Assembly: GCF_012935715.1 (NCBI RefSeq)
Contig: NZ_CP052860.1
Coordinates: 2,604,001-2,668,000, forward strand
Source: Pseudomonas sp. ADAK13
Lineage (GTDB): Bacteria > Pseudomonadota > Gammaproteobacteria > Pseudomonadales > Pseudomonadaceae
Reading direction: 5' to 3'
DNA length: 64,000 nucleotides
Shown one piece after another: positions 42,746 through 49,483 of this stretch (position 1 is the first letter of the stretch; each line of letters begins with the position of its first letter). The notes below the pieces were generated by a model. The model was not told the DNA's origin, made no database searches, and was given only the letters and a program-made list of their open reading frames with translations. The translations under genes were made by a program, and so were the position numbers.

Positions 42746-43609
42746 GTGCTGAGTGCCGAGCTGAAGGCGTTTTACATGGTCGCCCGCCTGGGCAGCATTA
42801 CCCAGGCGGCGAAAAAGCTCGGGCTGAGCCAGCCCACGGTGACCACCCAGATTCGTCACCTGGAAAGCCAGTACTCGGTGGAGTTGTTCTACCGCGGCGG
42901 GCGACGCTTGACGGTCAGCGACGAAGGCGCGCGGCTGTTGCCGATGGTCAAGGCGCTGTTGCAGCAGGAAGCGGATATCGAGTTTTTCCTGCGCAACAGT
43001 GGCCAGGTGCAGGGCGCGTTGAGGATTGCCGCGACGGCGCCGTATTACATCCTCGACCTGGTCAAAACCTTCCGCGAGCGGCTGCCACAGGTTGAGGTCT
43101 CGGTGGAAATCGGCAACTCCCAGCAAGTGCTGGAAGCGCTGGATGATTACCGCGTTGACGTTGCCGCCTCATCCCAGTTGCTTGAAGACCCGCGCCTGAT
43201 TCGCCGGGTGTTGGGCATGGACCCGCTGGTGCTGGCGGTGCACCGCAACCATCCGCTGGCGGTGCTCGACCATGTACCGCTGACCGCGCTGGCCGGGCAC
43301 ACCCTGCTGATGCGCGAACCGGGCTCCACCACCCGCCGATTGACCGAAGAAATGTTGCAGGGCGCCGGCGTGAGTTACGGGCCGCTGCTGGAGATCGGCA
43401 GCCGGGAATCGATTCGTGAGGCGGTGCTGCGCAATATCGGCATCAGCATCATCGCCCGCCAGGAAGTGCCCCACGACCCGCAATTGCGGGTGCTGACCAT
43501 CGAGAATGCCCCGCAGATTCCCGAGTACCTCTACTGCCTGAAAGAGCGAAAGGGCGCGCGGTTGCCAGCGGCTTTTCTGGGGTTGGCGCAGGAAATGTCC
43601 CCGATCTGA
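42746..43609 (+). CDS. LysR-family regulator of the phosphonate cluster (inferred)
   Basis: The 287-residue LysR regulator has a winged HTH at residues 1-60 (ITQAAKKLGLSQPTVTTQIRHLE) and the two-lobed effector domain (about 90-285). The GTG at 42746 follows GAGAGGG; it lies 16 bases after cadA. The downstream ABC transporter and phosphonate genes share its strand, so I infer that it controls them, responding to 2-aminoethylphosphonate or a related compound. A REP pair and 130 bases separate it from the first transporter gene. Confidence 0.85.
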   Translation: MLSAELKAFYMVARLGSITQAAKKLGLSQPTVTTQIRHLESQYSVELFYRGGRRLTVSDEGARLLPMVKALLQQEADIEFFLRNSGQVQGALRIAATAPYYILDLVKTFRERLPQVEVSVEIGNSQQVLEALDDYRVDVAASSQLLEDPRLIRRVLGMDPLVLAVHRNHPLAVLDHVPLTALAGHTLLMREPGSTTRRLTEEMLQGAGVSYGPLLEIGSRESIREAVLRNIGISIIARQEVPHDPQLRVLTIENAPQIPEYLYCLKERKGARLPAAFLGLAQEMSPI

Positions 43610-43610
43610 A

Positions 43611-43706
43611 GGCGCCATCGCAGGCAAGCCAGCTCCCACAGTTGGAATGCATTTCTCTGGCCCAACTCGATCAACTGTGGGAGCCGGGCTTGCCCGCGAT
43701 GGCGCC
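43611..43706. repeat. REP pair, tail-to-tail orientation
   Basis: First arm GGCGCCATCGCAGGCAAGCC..., second arm TGTGGGAGCCGGGCTTGCCC...GATGGCGCC; the outer ends GGCGCCATCG/CGATGGCGCC pair exactly, while the cores are different sub-variants. It overlaps neither gene. Confidence 0.88.
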
Positions 43707-43810
43707 AGTCCAGGCAAAACCTTCCTCAAGCCCTACCCAAATCCACCAATACCACTATCGCCACGTTTTGCCTTTCTGCCACATGAGGGACGCATTGCCT
43801 CCCTAGGATG

Positions 43811-43832
43811 ACCTTCATCAGTTTGATGAGGT
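43811..43832 (+). promoter_or_regulatory. Hairpin covering the ribosome site of the phosphonate ATPase gene
   Basis: ACCTTCATCA and TTGATGAGGT can pair (one bulge, 3-base loop). The Shine-Dalgarno GAGG (43828-43831) lies in the right arm, 7 bases before the ATG at 43839. It could limit translation unless opened; alternatively the dyad is a LysR-type operator element. Confidence 0.4.
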
Positions 43833-43838
43833 GCCTCC

Positions 43839-44903
43839 ATGAACACAGCCATGACCAACCCCGGCGCGCCAATGAAAGTGCGCGGTGTGCAGAAACGCTT
43901 CGGCGCCTTTACCGCGCTGGATAACGTGTCTTTGGACGTCGCCGCCGGCGAACTGGTGTGCCTGCTGGGCCCGTCGGGCTGCGGCAAGACCACCTTGCTG
44001 CGCTGCATTGCGGGCCTGGAACGCCAGGACAGCGGCGAGTTGTACCTCGGCGAACGCGACGTTTCCCTGCTGGCACCGCAGGCGCGGGACTACGGCATTC
44101 TGTTCCAGTCCTACGCGCTGTTTCCCAATCTCACTGTCGAAGCGAACATCGGCTACGGCCTCACCGGCAGTGGTCGCGATGAAGTGCGCAAGCGCGTCGG
44201 GCAGATGCTGGAACTGGTCGGCCTGGTGGGCAGCGAAAAGAAATACCCCGGCCAACTCTCCGGCGGCCAGCAACAACGTGTAGCCCTGGCCCGCGCCCTG
44301 GCACCGGCGCCGTCCTTGCTGCTGCTGGACGAACCCATGTCGGCCCTCGACGCCCGGGTGCGCGAGCATCTGTGCACCGAGCTGCGCCAACTGCAACGCC
44401 GCCTGGGTATTACCACGTTGATGGTCACCCACAACCAGGACGAGGCCATGTTGATGGCCGACCGCATCGCCGTGATGAACAACGGCAAGGTCGAGCAATA
44501 CGCCACGCCCCAGGAAATCTACGACCGCCCGGCCACACCGTTTGTGGCCGAGTTCGTCGGCCAGGGCAACTGGCTGCCGTTCAGCCGCAACAGCGCCAGC
44601 CACGCTCAGGTCGGCGGGATGAATATGCGTCTGGCAGACAACGCAGGCGTTGCCAAATCGGGTCGTCTGTTCTGCCGCCCGGAAGCCATCAGCGTCAACC
44701 CGCCGGTGCATGAAGAAAACCTGTTCCCGGCCAAGGTCCGCGAGATCACCTTCCTCGGCAACCGCTGCCGCATGAGCTTCGAACTGGACCAACTGCCCGG
44801 CCATCCGCTGCTGGCCGAACTGGCGCCGGAAGCCATGCCGCGCCTCGGCGCCCAGGACATCTGGGTCGCGCTGCCCCCGCGCAGCCTGCAGGTGTTTGCC
44901 TGA
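43839..44903 (+). CDS. 2-aminoethylphosphonate-type ABC transporter, ATP-binding protein
   Basis: The 354-residue ATPase has Walker A LGPSGCGKTT (about 44-53), signature LSGGQQQRVAL, Walker B LLLLDEP and the VTHNQDEA switch; a TOBE domain fills about 275-350. It resembles PhnT-like ATPases linked to 2-aminoethylphosphonate import (TIGR03258 type), an assignment that depends on the phosphonate genes downstream. The stop is immediately followed by the permease start (ATG 44905). Confidence 0.88.
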   Translation: MNTAMTNPGAPMKVRGVQKRFGAFTALDNVSLDVAAGELVCLLGPSGCGKTTLLRCIAGLERQDSGELYLGERDVSLLAPQARDYGILFQSYALFPNLTVEANIGYGLTGSGRDEVRKRVGQMLELVGLVGSEKKYPGQLSGGQQQRVALARALAPAPSLLLLDEPMSALDARVREHLCTELRQLQRRLGITTLMVTHNQDEAMLMADRIAVMNNGKVEQYATPQEIYDRPATPFVAEFVGQGNWLPFSRNSASHAQVGGMNMRLADNAGVAKSGRLFCRPEAISVNPPVHEENLFPAKVREITFLGNRCRMSFELDQLPGHPLLAELAPEAMPRLGAQDIWVALPPRSLQVFA

Positions 44904-44904
44904 G

Positions 44905-46629
44905 ATGGCCCGCGATATGACTCTGCCGATACCCGATAACGTGGCTCGACAGATTTCCCGTGCCGAACTCGGCGACCGTATTTTTGTTGTTGGCGGCAAG
45001 CTGCTCTGGCTGTGCCTGTTGGGCGTGGCGGTACTGATGCCGCTGCTGGCGATCTTCTGGCGCGGTTTCAGCAGTGAAGCCGGGCAGGGCGGTGGCCTGG
45101 TGGCGGCGTGGGAGTTGGTCACCAGCGATAACTTCCACTGGTTGCTGGGTAACAGCCTGAAGGTTTCCGTCAGCGTGGCGGCCATCGTCGTACCGCTGGC
45201 TTACCTGTTTGCCTACGCCCTGCAACGCACGTTGATTCCCGGCAAGGCGATCTGGCGCGGCATGTCGTTGCTGCCGTTGATGGCGCCGTCGATGCTGCCA
45301 GGGATTGCGCTGGTCTACCTGTTCGGTAACCAGGGCATGCTGCGCGGGCTGCTGTCGGACAACATCTATGGCTTCTGGGGCATCGTGCTCGGTGAAGTGA
45401 TCTACACCTTTCCCCATGCCTTGATGATTTTGTTGTCGGCGCTTTCCCTGGCGGATGCGCGATTGTTCGATGCGGCATCGAGCATGGGCGCCAGCCCGTC
45501 CCGGGCGTTTCGCAGCATCACCTGGCCCGCGACGCGCCAGGCAGTCTTTGCCGCGTTTTGCCTGGTGTTCACCCTGACCATCACCGACTTTGGCGTGCCT
45601 GTGGTAGTGGGCGGCGACTACCAAGTGCTGGCACTGGAAGCCTACAAGGCGGTGGTCGGCCAGCAGCAATTTGGTCGTGGAGCCTTGATTGGTATGGTCC
45701 TGCTGCTGCCGGCGCTGTTCAGCTTCGGCGTCGACGCCTGGCTGCGCCGTCGTCATGGCGACTCCATGAGCGGCCGCGCCCAGGTGTTCCAGCCGGCGCC
45801 GTCGAAGCTGCGGGATGGCTGCTACCTGGCCATCGTCCTGCTGATCTGCGCGAGCCTGCTGCTGGTGTTCGGCATGGCGGTCTACTCATCGCTGGTGAAG
45901 TTCTGGCCCTACAACCTGTCGCTGTCGCTGGCCCACTACCAGTTCGAGGACACGGCCGGCGGCGGCTGGCTGGCCTATCGCAACAGCATCACCATGGCCC
46001 TGTGCACTGCATCGATCGGCAGCGTGCTGATCTTCACCGGCGCCTACCTGATGGAAAAAACCAAGGGCCAGAAGGGCCTGAACCTGGCGCTGCGCATGCT
46101 CAGCTTCGTGCCGATGGCGGTGCCGGGGTTGGTGCTGGGCCTGGGCTACGTGTTCTTTTTCAACCTCAACGGCAACCCGCTGCATGTGTTCTACGGCACC
46201 ATGACCCTGTTGGTGGTGTGCACCATTGCTCACTATTTGACCACCGCACAAATGACCGCAACCACGGCCCTGCGCCAGATGGACGCCGAGTTCGAAGCCG
46301 CCGCGCTGTCGCTGAAGGCGCCGCTGTACCGCCATTACCTGCGCGTCACCGTGCCGATCTGCCTGCCGGCGCTGCTGGACATCGTGCGCTACCTGTTCGT
46401 GTCGGCTATGACCACCGTCTCCGCCGCGATCTTCCTCTACAGCCCCGACACCATCCTCGCCGCCGTCGCCGTGTTGAACATGGACGACGCCGGCAACGTG
46501 GGCGGTGCGGCGGCCATGTCGACCCTGATTCTGTTCACCTCGGCGGGCGTGTCCTTGCTGCTGGCGTGGGCCTCACGCGGCTTGTTGCGCCGCTCCCAGG
46601 CCTGGCGCCAAACCGCGCCCGGCCAATAA
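44905..46629 (+). CDS. 2-aminoethylphosphonate-type ABC transporter permease (fused)
   Basis: The 574-residue inner-membrane protein is a fusion of two permease units, each with about six helices and an EAA loop (DAASSMGASPSRAFRSITWP at about 190-210; EFEAAALSLKAPLYRHYLRVTVP at about 450-475). This corresponds to PhnU plus PhnV in one chain, as in the TIGR03262 family. The ATG 44905 lies 2 bases after the ATPase stop; an upstream TTG start is not needed. It is followed 23 bases later by the binding protein. Confidence 0.88.
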   Translation: MARDMTLPIPDNVARQISRAELGDRIFVVGGKLLWLCLLGVAVLMPLLAIFWRGFSSEAGQGGGLVAAWELVTSDNFHWLLGNSLKVSVSVAAIVVPLAYLFAYALQRTLIPGKAIWRGMSLLPLMAPSMLPGIALVYLFGNQGMLRGLLSDNIYGFWGIVLGEVIYTFPHALMILLSALSLADARLFDAASSMGASPSRAFRSITWPATRQAVFAAFCLVFTLTITDFGVPVVVGGDYQVLALEAYKAVVGQQQFGRGALIGMVLLLPALFSFGVDAWLRRRHGDSMSGRAQVFQPAPSKLRDGCYLAIVLLICASLLLVFGMAVYSSLVKFWPYNLSLSLAHYQFEDTAGGGWLAYRNSITMALCTASIGSVLIFTGAYLMEKTKGQKGLNLALRMLSFVPMAVPGLVLGLGYVFFFNLNGNPLHVFYGTMTLLVVCTIAHYLTTAQMTATTALRQMDAEFEAAALSLKAPLYRHYLRVTVPICLPALLDIVRYLFVSAMTTVSAAIFLYSPDTILAAVAVLNMDDAGNVGGAAAMSTLILFTSAGVSLLLAWASRGLLRRSQAWRQTAPGQ

Positions 46630-46652
46630 TTTACCCATAAAGGAACTGCACC

Positions 46653-47678
46653 ATGTTCAAGCCCCTGGCGTTAGCCGCTGCTGTGCTCACTGCGTTCAGC
46701 CTGAATGCCTTTGCCGCCAAGACCGAGTTGACCGTGTACACGGCCCTCGAAGCCGAGCAACTGAAGACCTACAAACAGGCCTTCGAAAAGGCTAACCCGG
46801 ACATCGATATCAAATGGGTACGCGATTCCACCGGCATCATCACCGCCAAGCTGCTGGCCGAGAAAGCCCGCCCGCAGGCTGACGTGGTGTGGGGCCTGGC
46901 GGCTTCCAGCCTGGCGATTCTCGACCAGCAGGGCATGCTGCAAAACTACGCACCCAAGGACTTGGGCAAGATCGGCGCGAACTACCGTGACGCCGCCAAT
47001 CCACCGGCCTGGGTGGGTATGGACGTGTGGGCGGCGACCATCTGCTTCAACACCGTCGAAGCCGAAAAGCAGGGCCTGAGCAAGCCGGTGAGCTGGCAAG
47101 ACCTGACCAAGCCCGAGTACAAAGGCAAGATCGTGATGCCCAACCCGGCCTCGTCGGGCACCGGTTTCCTCGACGTCAGCGCCTGGCTGCAGACCTTCGG
47201 CGAGAAGCAGGGCTGGCAGTACATGGACGACCTGCACCAGAACATCGGCCAGTACGTTCACTCCGGTTCCAAGCCGTGCAAGCTGGCGGCATCGGGTGAA
47301 TTCCCGATCGGCATTTCCTTCGAATACCCGGCCGTGCAGTTGAAACGCCAGGGCGCACCGCTGGACATCATCCTGCCGAAAGAAGGCCTGGGCTGGGACA
47401 TCGAAGCCACCGCCGTAATCAAAGGCACCGCCCACGCGGACGCGGCACAGAAACTCGCCGACTTCTCCGCAAGCCCGGCGGCGATGGAGTTGTACAAAGA
47501 AAACTTCGCGGTACTGGCCCAGCCGGGTATTGCCAAGCCGCAGACCGAATTGCCGGCGGATTACGAGCAGCGGTTGATCAAGAACGACTTCGCCTGGGCC
47601 TCGAAAAACCGCGACAGCATCCTGACCGAATGGCGCAAGCGCTATGACGGCAAGTCGGAAAAGGTTGCCGGCCAGTAA
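46653..47678 (+). CDS. Periplasmic binding protein for 2-aminoethylphosphonate-type ABC transporter
   Basis: The 341-residue protein has a signal peptide (about 1-22, ending NAFAA) and the Fe3+/phosphonate-type periplasmic binding fold: LTVYTALEAEQLKTYKQAFEK, KLLAEKARPQADVVWG, and NPASSGTGFLD. It fits the TIGR03261 PhnS-like family. AAAGGAAC precedes the ATG. It is the last transporter gene; a REPIN separates it from the catabolic genes but the strand stays the same. Confidence 0.88.
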   Translation: MFKPLALAAAVLTAFSLNAFAAKTELTVYTALEAEQLKTYKQAFEKANPDIDIKWVRDSTGIITAKLLAEKARPQADVVWGLAASSLAILDQQGMLQNYAPKDLGKIGANYRDAANPPAWVGMDVWAATICFNTVEAEKQGLSKPVSWQDLTKPEYKGKIVMPNPASSGTGFLDVSAWLQTFGEKQGWQYMDDLHQNIGQYVHSGSKPCKLAASGEFPIGISFEYPAVQLKRQGAPLDIILPKEGLGWDIEATAVIKGTAHADAAQKLADFSASPAAMELYKENFAVLAQPGIAKPQTELPADYEQRLIKNDFAWASKNRDSILTEWRKRYDGKSEKVAGQ

Positions 47679-47697: not shown

Positions 47698-47781
47698 GGC
47701 CTCATCGCGGGCAAGCCCGGCTCCCACATTTTGGATTGTGAATACCTTCCAATGTGGGAGCTGGCTTGCCTGCGATAGCGG
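47698..47781. repeat. REP pair inside the phosphonate gene set
   Basis: First arm GGCCTCATCGCGGGCAAGCC..., second arm TGTGGGAGCTGGCTTGCCTG (47753 onward), in tail-to-tail orientation and with different sub-variants. It lies between two genes of one apparent operon, 23 bases before the oxidoreductase start, so it may set separate mRNA levels for import and catabolism. Confidence 0.88.
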
Positions 47782-47804: not shown

Positions 47805-48929
47805 ATGACACAACTGCTGATCATCGGCGCCGGCATCCTCGGCCTGTCCCACGCCTACGCGGCCGCCAAACGCGGCCTCAAGGTCAAGGTCTTCGAGCGG
47901 AGCGCCACGCCACTGGGTGCTTCGGTGCGCAACTTCGGCCAAGCCCTGGTCACCGGTCAGCCGCCCGGTCCGATGCTCGACCTGGCGCGGGAAAGCCACG
48001 ATATCTGGGGCCAATGGGCACAACTGGCGGGTATTCAGCTCAAGCGCAACGGCTCCTACCTGTTCGCCCGCACCGAAGCCGAAGAGCACCTGCTTGAAGC
48101 CTTCTGCGCCGGGCGTGCCCAGGAGCACGGTTATCGTGTCGAGTTGCTGCAAGGCGCCGCCCTGGGCGACCTGTACGGTGGCCAGTTCAAACATCACCGC
48201 GCCGCCCTCCATGGCCTGGACGATCAACAACTGTATTCCCGCGAAGCCCTCCCGGCGCTGATCAACTACCTGAGCCGCGAACTCAACGTGGAGTTTCACT
48301 TCTCCACCCTGGTGCGCGACATCGAGCCCGGCCAGGTGCACACCACTGCCGGTTCCTTTCGCGGCGAGCAGATCATTGTCTGCTCCGGCCACGACTACCA
48401 GACGTTGCTGGCCGAGCAGATCGCCGAACTCAACCCGCAAATCTGCCGCCTGCAAATGCTGCGCGCCCGGCCACAGGTGGAGTTGAACCTGCAACACGCC
48501 CTGCTGACCGGGCTCAGTTGCGTGCACTACGGTGCCTTCGCCGACTTGCCGGAAGCCGCGCCGGTGCAGGCCGAGATCCTGCGGGACGTCCCGCACCTGC
48601 ATGAAAACGGCATCCACCTGCTGATCAGCCCGACGCCTTATGGTGAGCTGATCATCGGTGATTCCCACCATTACGGCAGCGATGCTTCACCGTTCAACGC
48701 CGAACAGGTGGACAACTGGATGATCGAACTGGCCGAACACACCCTGGGCTGCAAGATCCAGGTCGTGGAGCGCTGGCAGGGCGTCTATGGTTCCCGTGGG
48801 CCGGGGCCGTTTTCGTTCCTGCGGGCGGCGCCGGGGGTGAGTGCGGCGTTGATGCACACCGGTGTGGGCATGAGCGTCGGGCCGGCGATGGCCGAGCGCA
48901 ATATCACAGAGCTCTGGGGGAATGCGTGA
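47805..48929 (+). CDS. FAD-dependent oxidoreductase of phosphonate cluster (TIGR03364-like)
   Basis: The 374-residue flavoprotein has the DAO-type dinucleotide motif IIGAGILGLSHAYAAAKRG (about 5-24), the ERSATPLGASVRNFGQ block and a C-terminal SRGPGPFSF/HTGVGMS block. Such FAD enzymes near phosphonate genes have been reported to oxidise N-methyl-2-aminoethylphosphonate or 2-aminoethylphosphonate to phosphonoacetaldehyde. AGGA lies 9 bases before the ATG at 47805; an in-frame start at 47754 lies within the REPIN. Its stop overlaps the HD oxygenase start (TGATG). Confidence 0.82.
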   Translation: MTQLLIIGAGILGLSHAYAAAKRGLKVKVFERSATPLGASVRNFGQALVTGQPPGPMLDLARESHDIWGQWAQLAGIQLKRNGSYLFARTEAEEHLLEAFCAGRAQEHGYRVELLQGAALGDLYGGQFKHHRAALHGLDDQQLYSREALPALINYLSRELNVEFHFSTLVRDIEPGQVHTTAGSFRGEQIIVCSGHDYQTLLAEQIAELNPQICRLQMLRARPQVELNLQHALLTGLSCVHYGAFADLPEAAPVQAEILRDVPHLHENGIHLLISPTPYGELIIGDSHHYGSDASPFNAEQVDNWMIELAEHTLGCKIQVVERWQGVYGSRGPGPFSFLRAAPGVSAALMHTGVGMSVGPAMAERNITELWGNA

Positions 48930-49483
48930 TGAACGCTGAACAGGCAATCACCGAAGTCTTTGGCTTATACGAACAACATGGCACCGCCGACTACATCGGT
49001 GAACCGGTGTCGCAGATCGAGCACATGTCCCAGGCCGCGCAGTTGGCCATGGCTGAAGGCTTCGATGATGAGGTGGTGTTGGCGGCGTTCTTCCACGATA
49101 TCGGGCACATCTGCGGTCAAGGTGGCGAGAACATGGGGGGGTATGGCGTGGTCAGCCATGAACGGCTGGGCGCCGACTTTCTGCGCCGGGCGGGCTTCAG
49201 CGAGCGCATGGCCAAACTCGTGGAGTACCACGTGCAGGCCAAGCGTTACCTGACCTTCAGCCAGCCGGACTACTACGCGCGCCTGAGCGAAGCCAGCCGT
49301 CGCACCCTGGGCTACCAGGGCGGTGTGATGACGGCCGAAGAAGCCCGGGCGTTTGAGCAGGACCCGCTGTGCGCCGTGAGTTTGCGCATGCGTCACTGGG
49401 ATGAACAGGCCAAGGAAATGCACGTGCCGGTGCTGGACCTTGAAGTGTTGAAGTCCAAGGCCCGGCAGCTGTTGGCGGCTTAA
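48929..49483 (+). CDS. phnZ: PhnZ-like HD-domain phosphonate oxygenase
   Basis: The 184-residue HD protein has all residues I recall for the mixed-valent diiron oxygenase PhnZ, at constant offsets: Y22 and E25 (YIGE), H32, H56-D57, H77, H101, D158 for iron, and K105, S123, R155 for substrate. PhnZ cleaves the C-P bond of 2-amino-1-hydroxyethylphosphonate to glycine and phosphate. No PhnY hydroxylase is adjacent; instead an FAD oxidoreductase is coupled by a TGATG overlap. The ATG at 48929 (GGGGG 8 bases upstream) is chosen over the preceding GTG. Its stop shares bases with the convergent GTPase gene. Confidence 0.85.
   Translation: MNAEQAITEVFGLYEQHGTADYIGEPVSQIEHMSQAAQLAMAEGFDDEVVLAAFFHDIGHICGQGGENMGGYGVVSHERLGADFLRRAGFSERMAKLVEYHVQAKRYLTFSQPDYYARLSEASRRTLGYQGGVMTAEEARAFEQDPLCAVSLRMRHWDEQAKEMHVPVLDLEVLKSKARQLLAA

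Follow-up and report, generated by a model that had tools for sequence, protein, structure and literature searches.

How a PhnZ-type oxygenase could obtain its substrate with no hydroxylase gene beside it is the question raised by a locus in the soil-type Pseudomonas sp. ADAK13, in which the initial annotation saw a PhnZ-like C-P oxygenase coupled to an FAD oxidoreductase. The window, meaning the whole stretch of 64,000 nucleotides that was analyzed, comes from a genome assembled as a single contig of 7.3 Mb. The nearest named loci all belong to Pseudomonas, the best being that of P. yamanorum IPO3780, with an HD protein 98% identical to that of the window, and the genome can probably be placed near the fluorescens group. 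Six of six genes (LysR, PhnT2, PhnU2, PhnS2, FAD and HD) score above the curated cut-off of phosphonate-related NCBIfam models, and they are arranged as follows:

42746..43609, + strand: LysR regulator of the aminoethylphosphonate-catabolism type (TIGR03339, 422.9 bits, cut-off 341.1), syntenic in relatives
43735..43838, + strand: probable promoter/operator region of the importer operon, a putative role; partly conserved among Pseudomonas loci in an alignment of 80 upstream stretches
43839..44903, + strand: PhnT2/AepV-type ABC ATPase (TIGR03265, 515.5 bits, cut-off 457.7)
44896..46629, + strand: PhnU2/AepW-type permease (TIGR03262, 745.6 bits, cut-off 593.25)
46653..47678, + strand: PhnS2/AepX-type 2-aminoethylphosphonate (AEP) binding protein (TIGR03261, 539.4 bits, cut-off 392.75)
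47805..48929, + strand: HpnW/PbfD-family FAD amine oxidoreductase (TIGR03364, 452.5 bits, cut-off 285.1)
48929..49483, + strand: orphan HD-domain oxygenase from the PhnZ side of its family by residues and tree (TIGR03276, 229.4 bits, cut-off 214.6), presumably di-iron as PhnZ is

The importer genes PhnT2, PhnU2 and PhnS2 span 43839-47678, and a convergent GTPase-like gene lies 3′ of the HD gene. Both the FAD and the HD reading frames are open as first described, and the coupling between them was borne out: the FAD gene stops with TGA at 48927-48929 and the HD gene starts with ATG at 48929 and stops at 49481-49483, giving a TGATG stop/start overlap, and a GTG at 48926 is also found upstream of this ATG. 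The window further contains 21 copies of a REP-like motif (0 expected in shuffles), many of them as inverted pairs, located at 43618-43640 in the LysR/importer gap, at 47753-47775 in the gap between the binding-protein and FAD genes, and in 19 further places. Since two of these copies sit between genes of the operon, they may influence transcript levels within it.

The assignment of the HD protein as PhnZ-like is upheld by the TIGR03276 model, by its residues, and by its position in a family tree; the general HD model PF01966 was dropped as a screen because it is too unspecific, with 11 matches in the genome. Compared with PhnZ of the PhnY*-PhnZ system (HF130_AEPn_1; PDB 4MLM/4N71), the window HD aligns at E 4.9e-45 with 78 of 162 aligned residues identical (48%), a stronger match than that to TmpB (6npa, E 1.3e-30). 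All the iron and substrate residues claimed for it align with their PhnZ counterparts in the 4mlm alignment: counted from the ATG, Y22, E25, H32, H56, D57 and H77 correspond to PhnZ Y24, E27, H34, H58, D59 and H80, and H101, K105, S123, R155 and D158 to PhnZ H104, K108, S126, R158 and D161. PhnZ H62 and Q133 are also kept, and the letter is identical at 15 of 15 PhnZ positions examined. Across 110 aligned relatives, 11 of these 15 positions are invariant, E27, H62 and S126 have one exception each, and Q31 is replaced by methionine in seven. The di-iron motif H...HD...H...H...D (H33, H57-D58, H78, H102 and D159 in GTG numbering) is identical in 110/110 relatives, and the YxxE substrate latch (PhnZ Y24/E27; Y23 and E26 in GTG numbering) keeps its tyrosine in 110/110 and its glutamate in 109/110. 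The roles of the PhnZ residues follow PMC8177086 in part and are otherwise general background.

The tree has 49 rows, with 16 named loci out of 80 represented, and several long branches meet in it according to a warning from the tool. A split supported at 100/99 puts the window HD and its orthologues in Pseudomonas on one side with PhnZ, as it does a protein from a Hymenobacter plasmid. This PhnZ side also takes in two gammaproteobacterial HDs that adjoin PhyH genes, and PhnZ joins these two rows at only 88/51. The other side holds TmpB along with HDs linked to TmpA and those from Comamonas and Asticcacaulis. TmpB and the window HD have the HD oxygenase superfamily, the iron motif and the YxxE loop in common; in contrast to TmpB, the window HD reaches only 128.6 bits with the TmpB model, under the cut-off of 300, and no TmpA over its cut-off was found among the five TauD proteins scanned. 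By analogy with PhnZ, the window HD would cleave (R)-1-hydroxy-2-aminoethylphosphonate ((R)-HAEP) to glycine and phosphate. Unlike PhnZ, it has no PhnY* adjoining it or detected in the genome, and it stands behind an AEP importer together with HpnW.

Outside Pseudomonas, the nearest HD found is the one on the Hymenobacter sp. NBH84 plasmid (locus L149, 12986-13582; Bacteroidota), which is 61% identical, lies near genes for a Na/Pi symporter and phosphatases and ~9 kb from a TIGR03364 gene, and is a possible case of horizontal transfer. TIGR03276 HD genes on a Nostoc plasmid (L155:7989-8549) and a Variovorax plasmid (L157:7989-8537) form part of C-P lyase operons, either internally or at the end, the Variovorax locus including phnCDE, and no hydroxylase is annotated in either stretch.

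The absence of a PhnY* partner, which the initial annotation noted for the locus itself, holds genome-wide as far as tested, as does that of TmpA. One alternative is that a hydroxylase encoded elsewhere, an unrecognized PhyH or TauD, supplies the α-hydroxyphosphonate in trans, the whole forming a dispersed PhnY*Z-like pathway. The genome does hold a single PhyH, at 6.62 Mb and 3.97 Mb from the HD gene along the contig, and six TauD matches. The PhyH was rejected as PhnY* on its low identity to PhnZ-linked PhyH and on its family scores: it shares 25% identity with a PhnZ-linked PhyH, as against 77% (454 bits) between two such proteins, and its best NCBIfam match, ectoine hydroxylase, reaches 69.7 of 336.5 bits, far under the cut-off. 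From their translations alone, the ORFs flanking it look like an amino-acid ABC transporter. Five of the six TauD proteins were scanned, all but the one in a 3447-residue frame: two are taurine dioxygenases over the cut-off, two fall below that cut-off, and one is over the cut-off as a gamma-butyrobetaine dioxygenase. This last protein (G000:C1:2796953 in our coordinates) has the best TmpA score of the five, 317.7 against a cut-off of 400, and was rejected as TmpA; two HD-linked TauD proteins used as controls gave 596.4 and 582.1.

Relatives bear on the same alternative from both sides. In a draw of 369 genomes across the class, eight other genomes have a full-length HD match (174-210 bits, all under the curated cut-off), and in seven of these eight gammaproteobacteria a TauD (5) or a PhyH (2) adjoins the HD gene; in the eighth, the one neighboring ORF scanned had no Pfam match. 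These neighbors show that the test detects a hydroxylase where one exists. Within Pseudomonas, we surveyed 119 genomes of this one genus, which are related, so the tests are not independent. HD was counted in 72 of them (68 over the curated cut-off and 4 at 188-200 bits, including the divergent HDs of genomes G041 and G042). A PhyH match is lacking in 28 of these 72, and HD and PhyH are not associated (both in 44 genomes, HD only in 28, PhyH only in 33, neither in 14; Fisher p 0.33). Only one of the PhyH places compared is less than 50 kb from an HD gene, in G068 (18.9 kb, 27.9 bits), and the best match of a PhnZ-linked PhyH anywhere in the 119 genomes is 29% identical at 35.8 bits. Of 119 Pseudomonas species sampled, 72 thus keep an HD oxygenase (shown to be divergent in two) with no PhnY* found, and we consider supply by a hydroxylase in trans unlikely.

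The initial annotation had also seen no PhnW or PhnX, which is correct within the window and fails genome-wide. Adjacent phnW (565.5 bits) and phnX (331.2 bits) genes are present at G000:C1:7101737-7103638 (~7.10 Mb on the same chromosome), beside two TIGR03339 LysR genes (399.7 and 350.1 bits). A second phnX at G000:C1:3341709-3342461 (L119:8659-9486; 321.2 bits) adjoins a LysR gene that scores 249.5 for TIGR03339, below the 341.1 cut-off, and no phnW or HpnW was recognized in the 17 kb around it. The genome therefore carries both genes of the PhnWX hydrolytic pathway, which removes the main premise of that annotation, and a C-P lyase PhnJ (495.7 bits) is found at 244643. Of the prospect that a distant phnWX is co-regulated with this cluster, the gene pair and its neighboring LysR genes were found, but co-regulation gained no support. 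A 9-mer common to the PhnT2 and phnW upstream regions, considered as a shared operator, occurs in only 9 of 80 PhnT2 upstream stretches, and among five phnW-side stretches (two of them cut on the wrong strand) only in that of this genome, so it was judged to be chance.

A phosphonatase in the genome gives the FAD enzyme a possible outlet. PbfD enzymes, as PMC10590968 describes them, oxidize N-methyl-AEP, and AEP with varying efficiency, to phosphonoacetaldehyde, and a PbfD1 in that paper carries the TIGR03364 annotation. By analogy, the window HpnW, which belongs to the same family, is tied to phnX and sits in an importer context, would oxidize N-methyl-AEP/AEP to phosphonoacetaldehyde. It is only weakly similar to solved sarcosine and glycine oxidases. 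With the HpnW of a phnWX cluster in Acinetobacter, PbfD1-like by its context, it shares only 28% identity; it is thus not close to that type and its substrate could differ.

Across the 119 genomes, HD is present in 72, HpnW in 67, PhnW in 75, and PhnX, which is common, in 81. HpnW never occurs without PhnX (0/67), and it occurs without PhnW in 6/67 and without HD in 4/67. Conversely, HD is found with HpnW absent genome-wide in 9/72 and without PhnX in 3/72, namely in G037, G042 and G068, of which G042 has a divergent HD that does not group on the PhnZ side. Fisher tests give extreme p values (9.6e-20 for HpnW-PhnX, 1.7e-16 for HD-PhnX, and 8.1e-19 for HD-HpnW), but as the genomes are related, our argument rests on the exclusions instead.

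The explanation we propose, with a probability of roughly two in three (0.68), is an aminophosphonate scavenging operon with two parallel branches that share one importer. The PhnS2T2U2 (AepXVW-type) importer would bring in AEP and close analogues. HpnW would oxidatively deaminate N-methyl-AEP and/or AEP to phosphonoacetaldehyde, which PhnX, acting in trans from the same chromosome, would hydrolyze to acetaldehyde and phosphate. The HD protein would be an orphaned PhnZ converting imported (R)-HAEP, or its N-methyl form, to glycine, or sarcosine, and phosphate, its substrate being a compound that PhnW and PhnX process poorly; it would need no PhnY* because the hydroxyl group arrives with the nutrient. 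The observations here are of which genes are present, their homology and residues, their co-occurrence and their order, and substrates, products and induction are inferred. It is phosphonoacetaldehyde being the substrate of PhnX, the dependence of HpnW on PhnX, and the literature on (R)-HAEP that together suggest a salvage role for HD and, for HpnW, a role in supplying PhnX. On that compound, PMC8154272 states that (R)-HAEP is natural, inefficiently processed by PhnWX, and of poorly known abundance; it counts phnZ homologues in 15 of 1,186 phnWX and 24 of 75 phnWAY clusters, none of them together with pbfA, and takes this distribution as a sign of separate processing for R-HAEP. In marine genomes, phnZ is often present together with phnA or phnX, as noted in PMC9381506.

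Operon maps, made by tblastn for the numbered genomes, reveal that the operon is modular. The window order (LysR-T2-U2-S2-HpnW-HD) with the full set plus the GTPase is found in 71 of 80 named loci, HpnW and HD occur together in 74/80, and in 3/80 the HpnW-HD pair lacks LysR, the GTPase or more within the stretch. In at least five genomes (among 40 PhnX places compared), phnX itself is in the operon: G013, G027 and G028 have LysR-T2-U2-phnX-S2-HpnW-HD, with phnX between the permease and binding-protein genes, and G041 and G043 have LysR-T2-U2-phnX-S2-HpnW with no HD in the operon. The importer stands with HpnW and without HD in G007, G105 and G106, and with HD and without HpnW in G002, G025, G057, G088, G110 and six of the 80 named loci, the latter judged on the flanks covered; tblastn at E 1e-10 detected no piece of HpnW in these HpnW-lacking loci. 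HD is under purifying selection where HpnW is missing: dN/dS is 0.113-0.181 in eight pairs with HpnW absent from both members, compared with 0.045-0.136 when the window is paired with four loci that carry HpnW. The pair window-L105 gave 0.120, dS was saturated for window-L108, and L100-L101, two phnX-containing operons, gave 0.41. On the HD tree, the presence of HpnW changes seven times by parsimony, of which well-supported branches force only two. The divergent HDs of G041 (L112:5891-7065) and G042 (L106:6782-8013) are 33-36% identical to the window HD and score 225-232 bits with TIGR03276; they abut a gene for a PhnX-related, 'inactivated' HAD hydrolase of PcrP/PA2803 type, and no importer genes were found beside them.

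A serial pathway is the next alternative, in which HpnW oxidizes (N-methyl-)HAEP to (1-hydroxy-2-oxoethyl)phosphonate and HD releases glyoxylate and phosphate from this, or the order is reversed, with N-methyl-HAEP cleaved by HD and the resulting sarcosine then oxidized by HpnW. The two genes are strongly associated, adjacent in 62 of 67 HpnW cases, joined here by the stop/start overlap, and both present in most named loci; this adjacency and association count against the parallel reading, and a serial pathway would explain them too. Their linkage also recurs on Comamonas and Asticcacaulis plasmids with HDs from the other side of the tree, HpnW is weakly similar to sarcosine and glycine oxidases, and PMC11203657 names HpnW as a possible source of substrate for PhnHD. 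However, HpnW tracks PhnX (67/67) more closely than HD (63/67), each is found without the other, HD lacking HpnW is under purifying selection, and the Comamonas and Asticcacaulis loci have phnX next to HpnW and a divergent HD. The suggestion of the initial annotation that the FAD enzyme feeds a different substrate to HD is therefore unsupported, as the chemistry published for the FAD family in PMC10590968 is also phosphonoacetaldehyde-forming, and the odd FAD-HD coupling it proposed falls away when the search is widened to the full genome and to related ones. We rate the serial pathway as distinctly improbable. It would be a slightly longer shot still that the two enzymes form a true two-step, hydroxylase-free cleavage of N-methylated or plain HAEP, put together in separate events with HDs from either side of the tree, whether the flavoenzyme deaminates and the di-iron enzyme cleaves an α-hydroxy-aldehyde, or in reverse through sarcosine.

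Least probable of all is that HD mainly destroys HAEP slipping in via the AEP importer before it inhibits growth or enters PhnW, for which the inhibition of E. coli growth by racemic HAEP and the inefficient processing of R-HAEP by PhnWX (cited in PMC8154272) and the tie of HD to the importer in most loci can be adduced, but HD lacks importer genes within the stretches covered in G037, G068 and G102, and sequence cannot tell protection from nutrition. These three HDs also count against the reading of an importer-supplied HD.

Arrangements related to this operon have been published, and the find is fairly ordinary. The Achromobacter cluster LysR-PhnHD-hpnWphnSXUT has a LysR, importer, HpnW and TIGR03276 HD as in the window, according to PMC11203657; there, phnX is inside the cluster, whereas here it is elsewhere and HD directly follows HpnW. 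Achromobacter PhnHD is given there as 30% identical to PhnZ; it is not in our tree, but HDs from Comamonas and Asticcacaulis loci with a similar gene arrangement are, and these do not group on the PhnZ side. The discussion of that paper already noted pseudomonads that have TIGR03276 along with PhnW and PhnX and lack PhnY*. AepXVW of Pseudomonas putida BIRD-1 is an AEP ABC importer with a phosphonate LysR, as here, likened from its description in PMC8316502, and its equivalence to PhnS2/T2/U2 is our own reading; the same source reports that AEP operons of pseudomonads are often fragmented over the genome.

What is new is the comparative evidence on HpnW and the position of the window HD in the family tree, on the same side as PhnZ. 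In 2024, PMC11203657 left open whether HpnW serves the phosphonatase or the HD oxygenase, and no paper that settles this was found in the open-licence literature; the genus-wide pattern favors the phosphonatase. That same pattern of presence and absence would make the HD enzyme a stand-alone salvage enzyme, and if this is true, (R)-HAEP or a close analogue would reach pseudomonads often enough to maintain a dedicated oxygenase.
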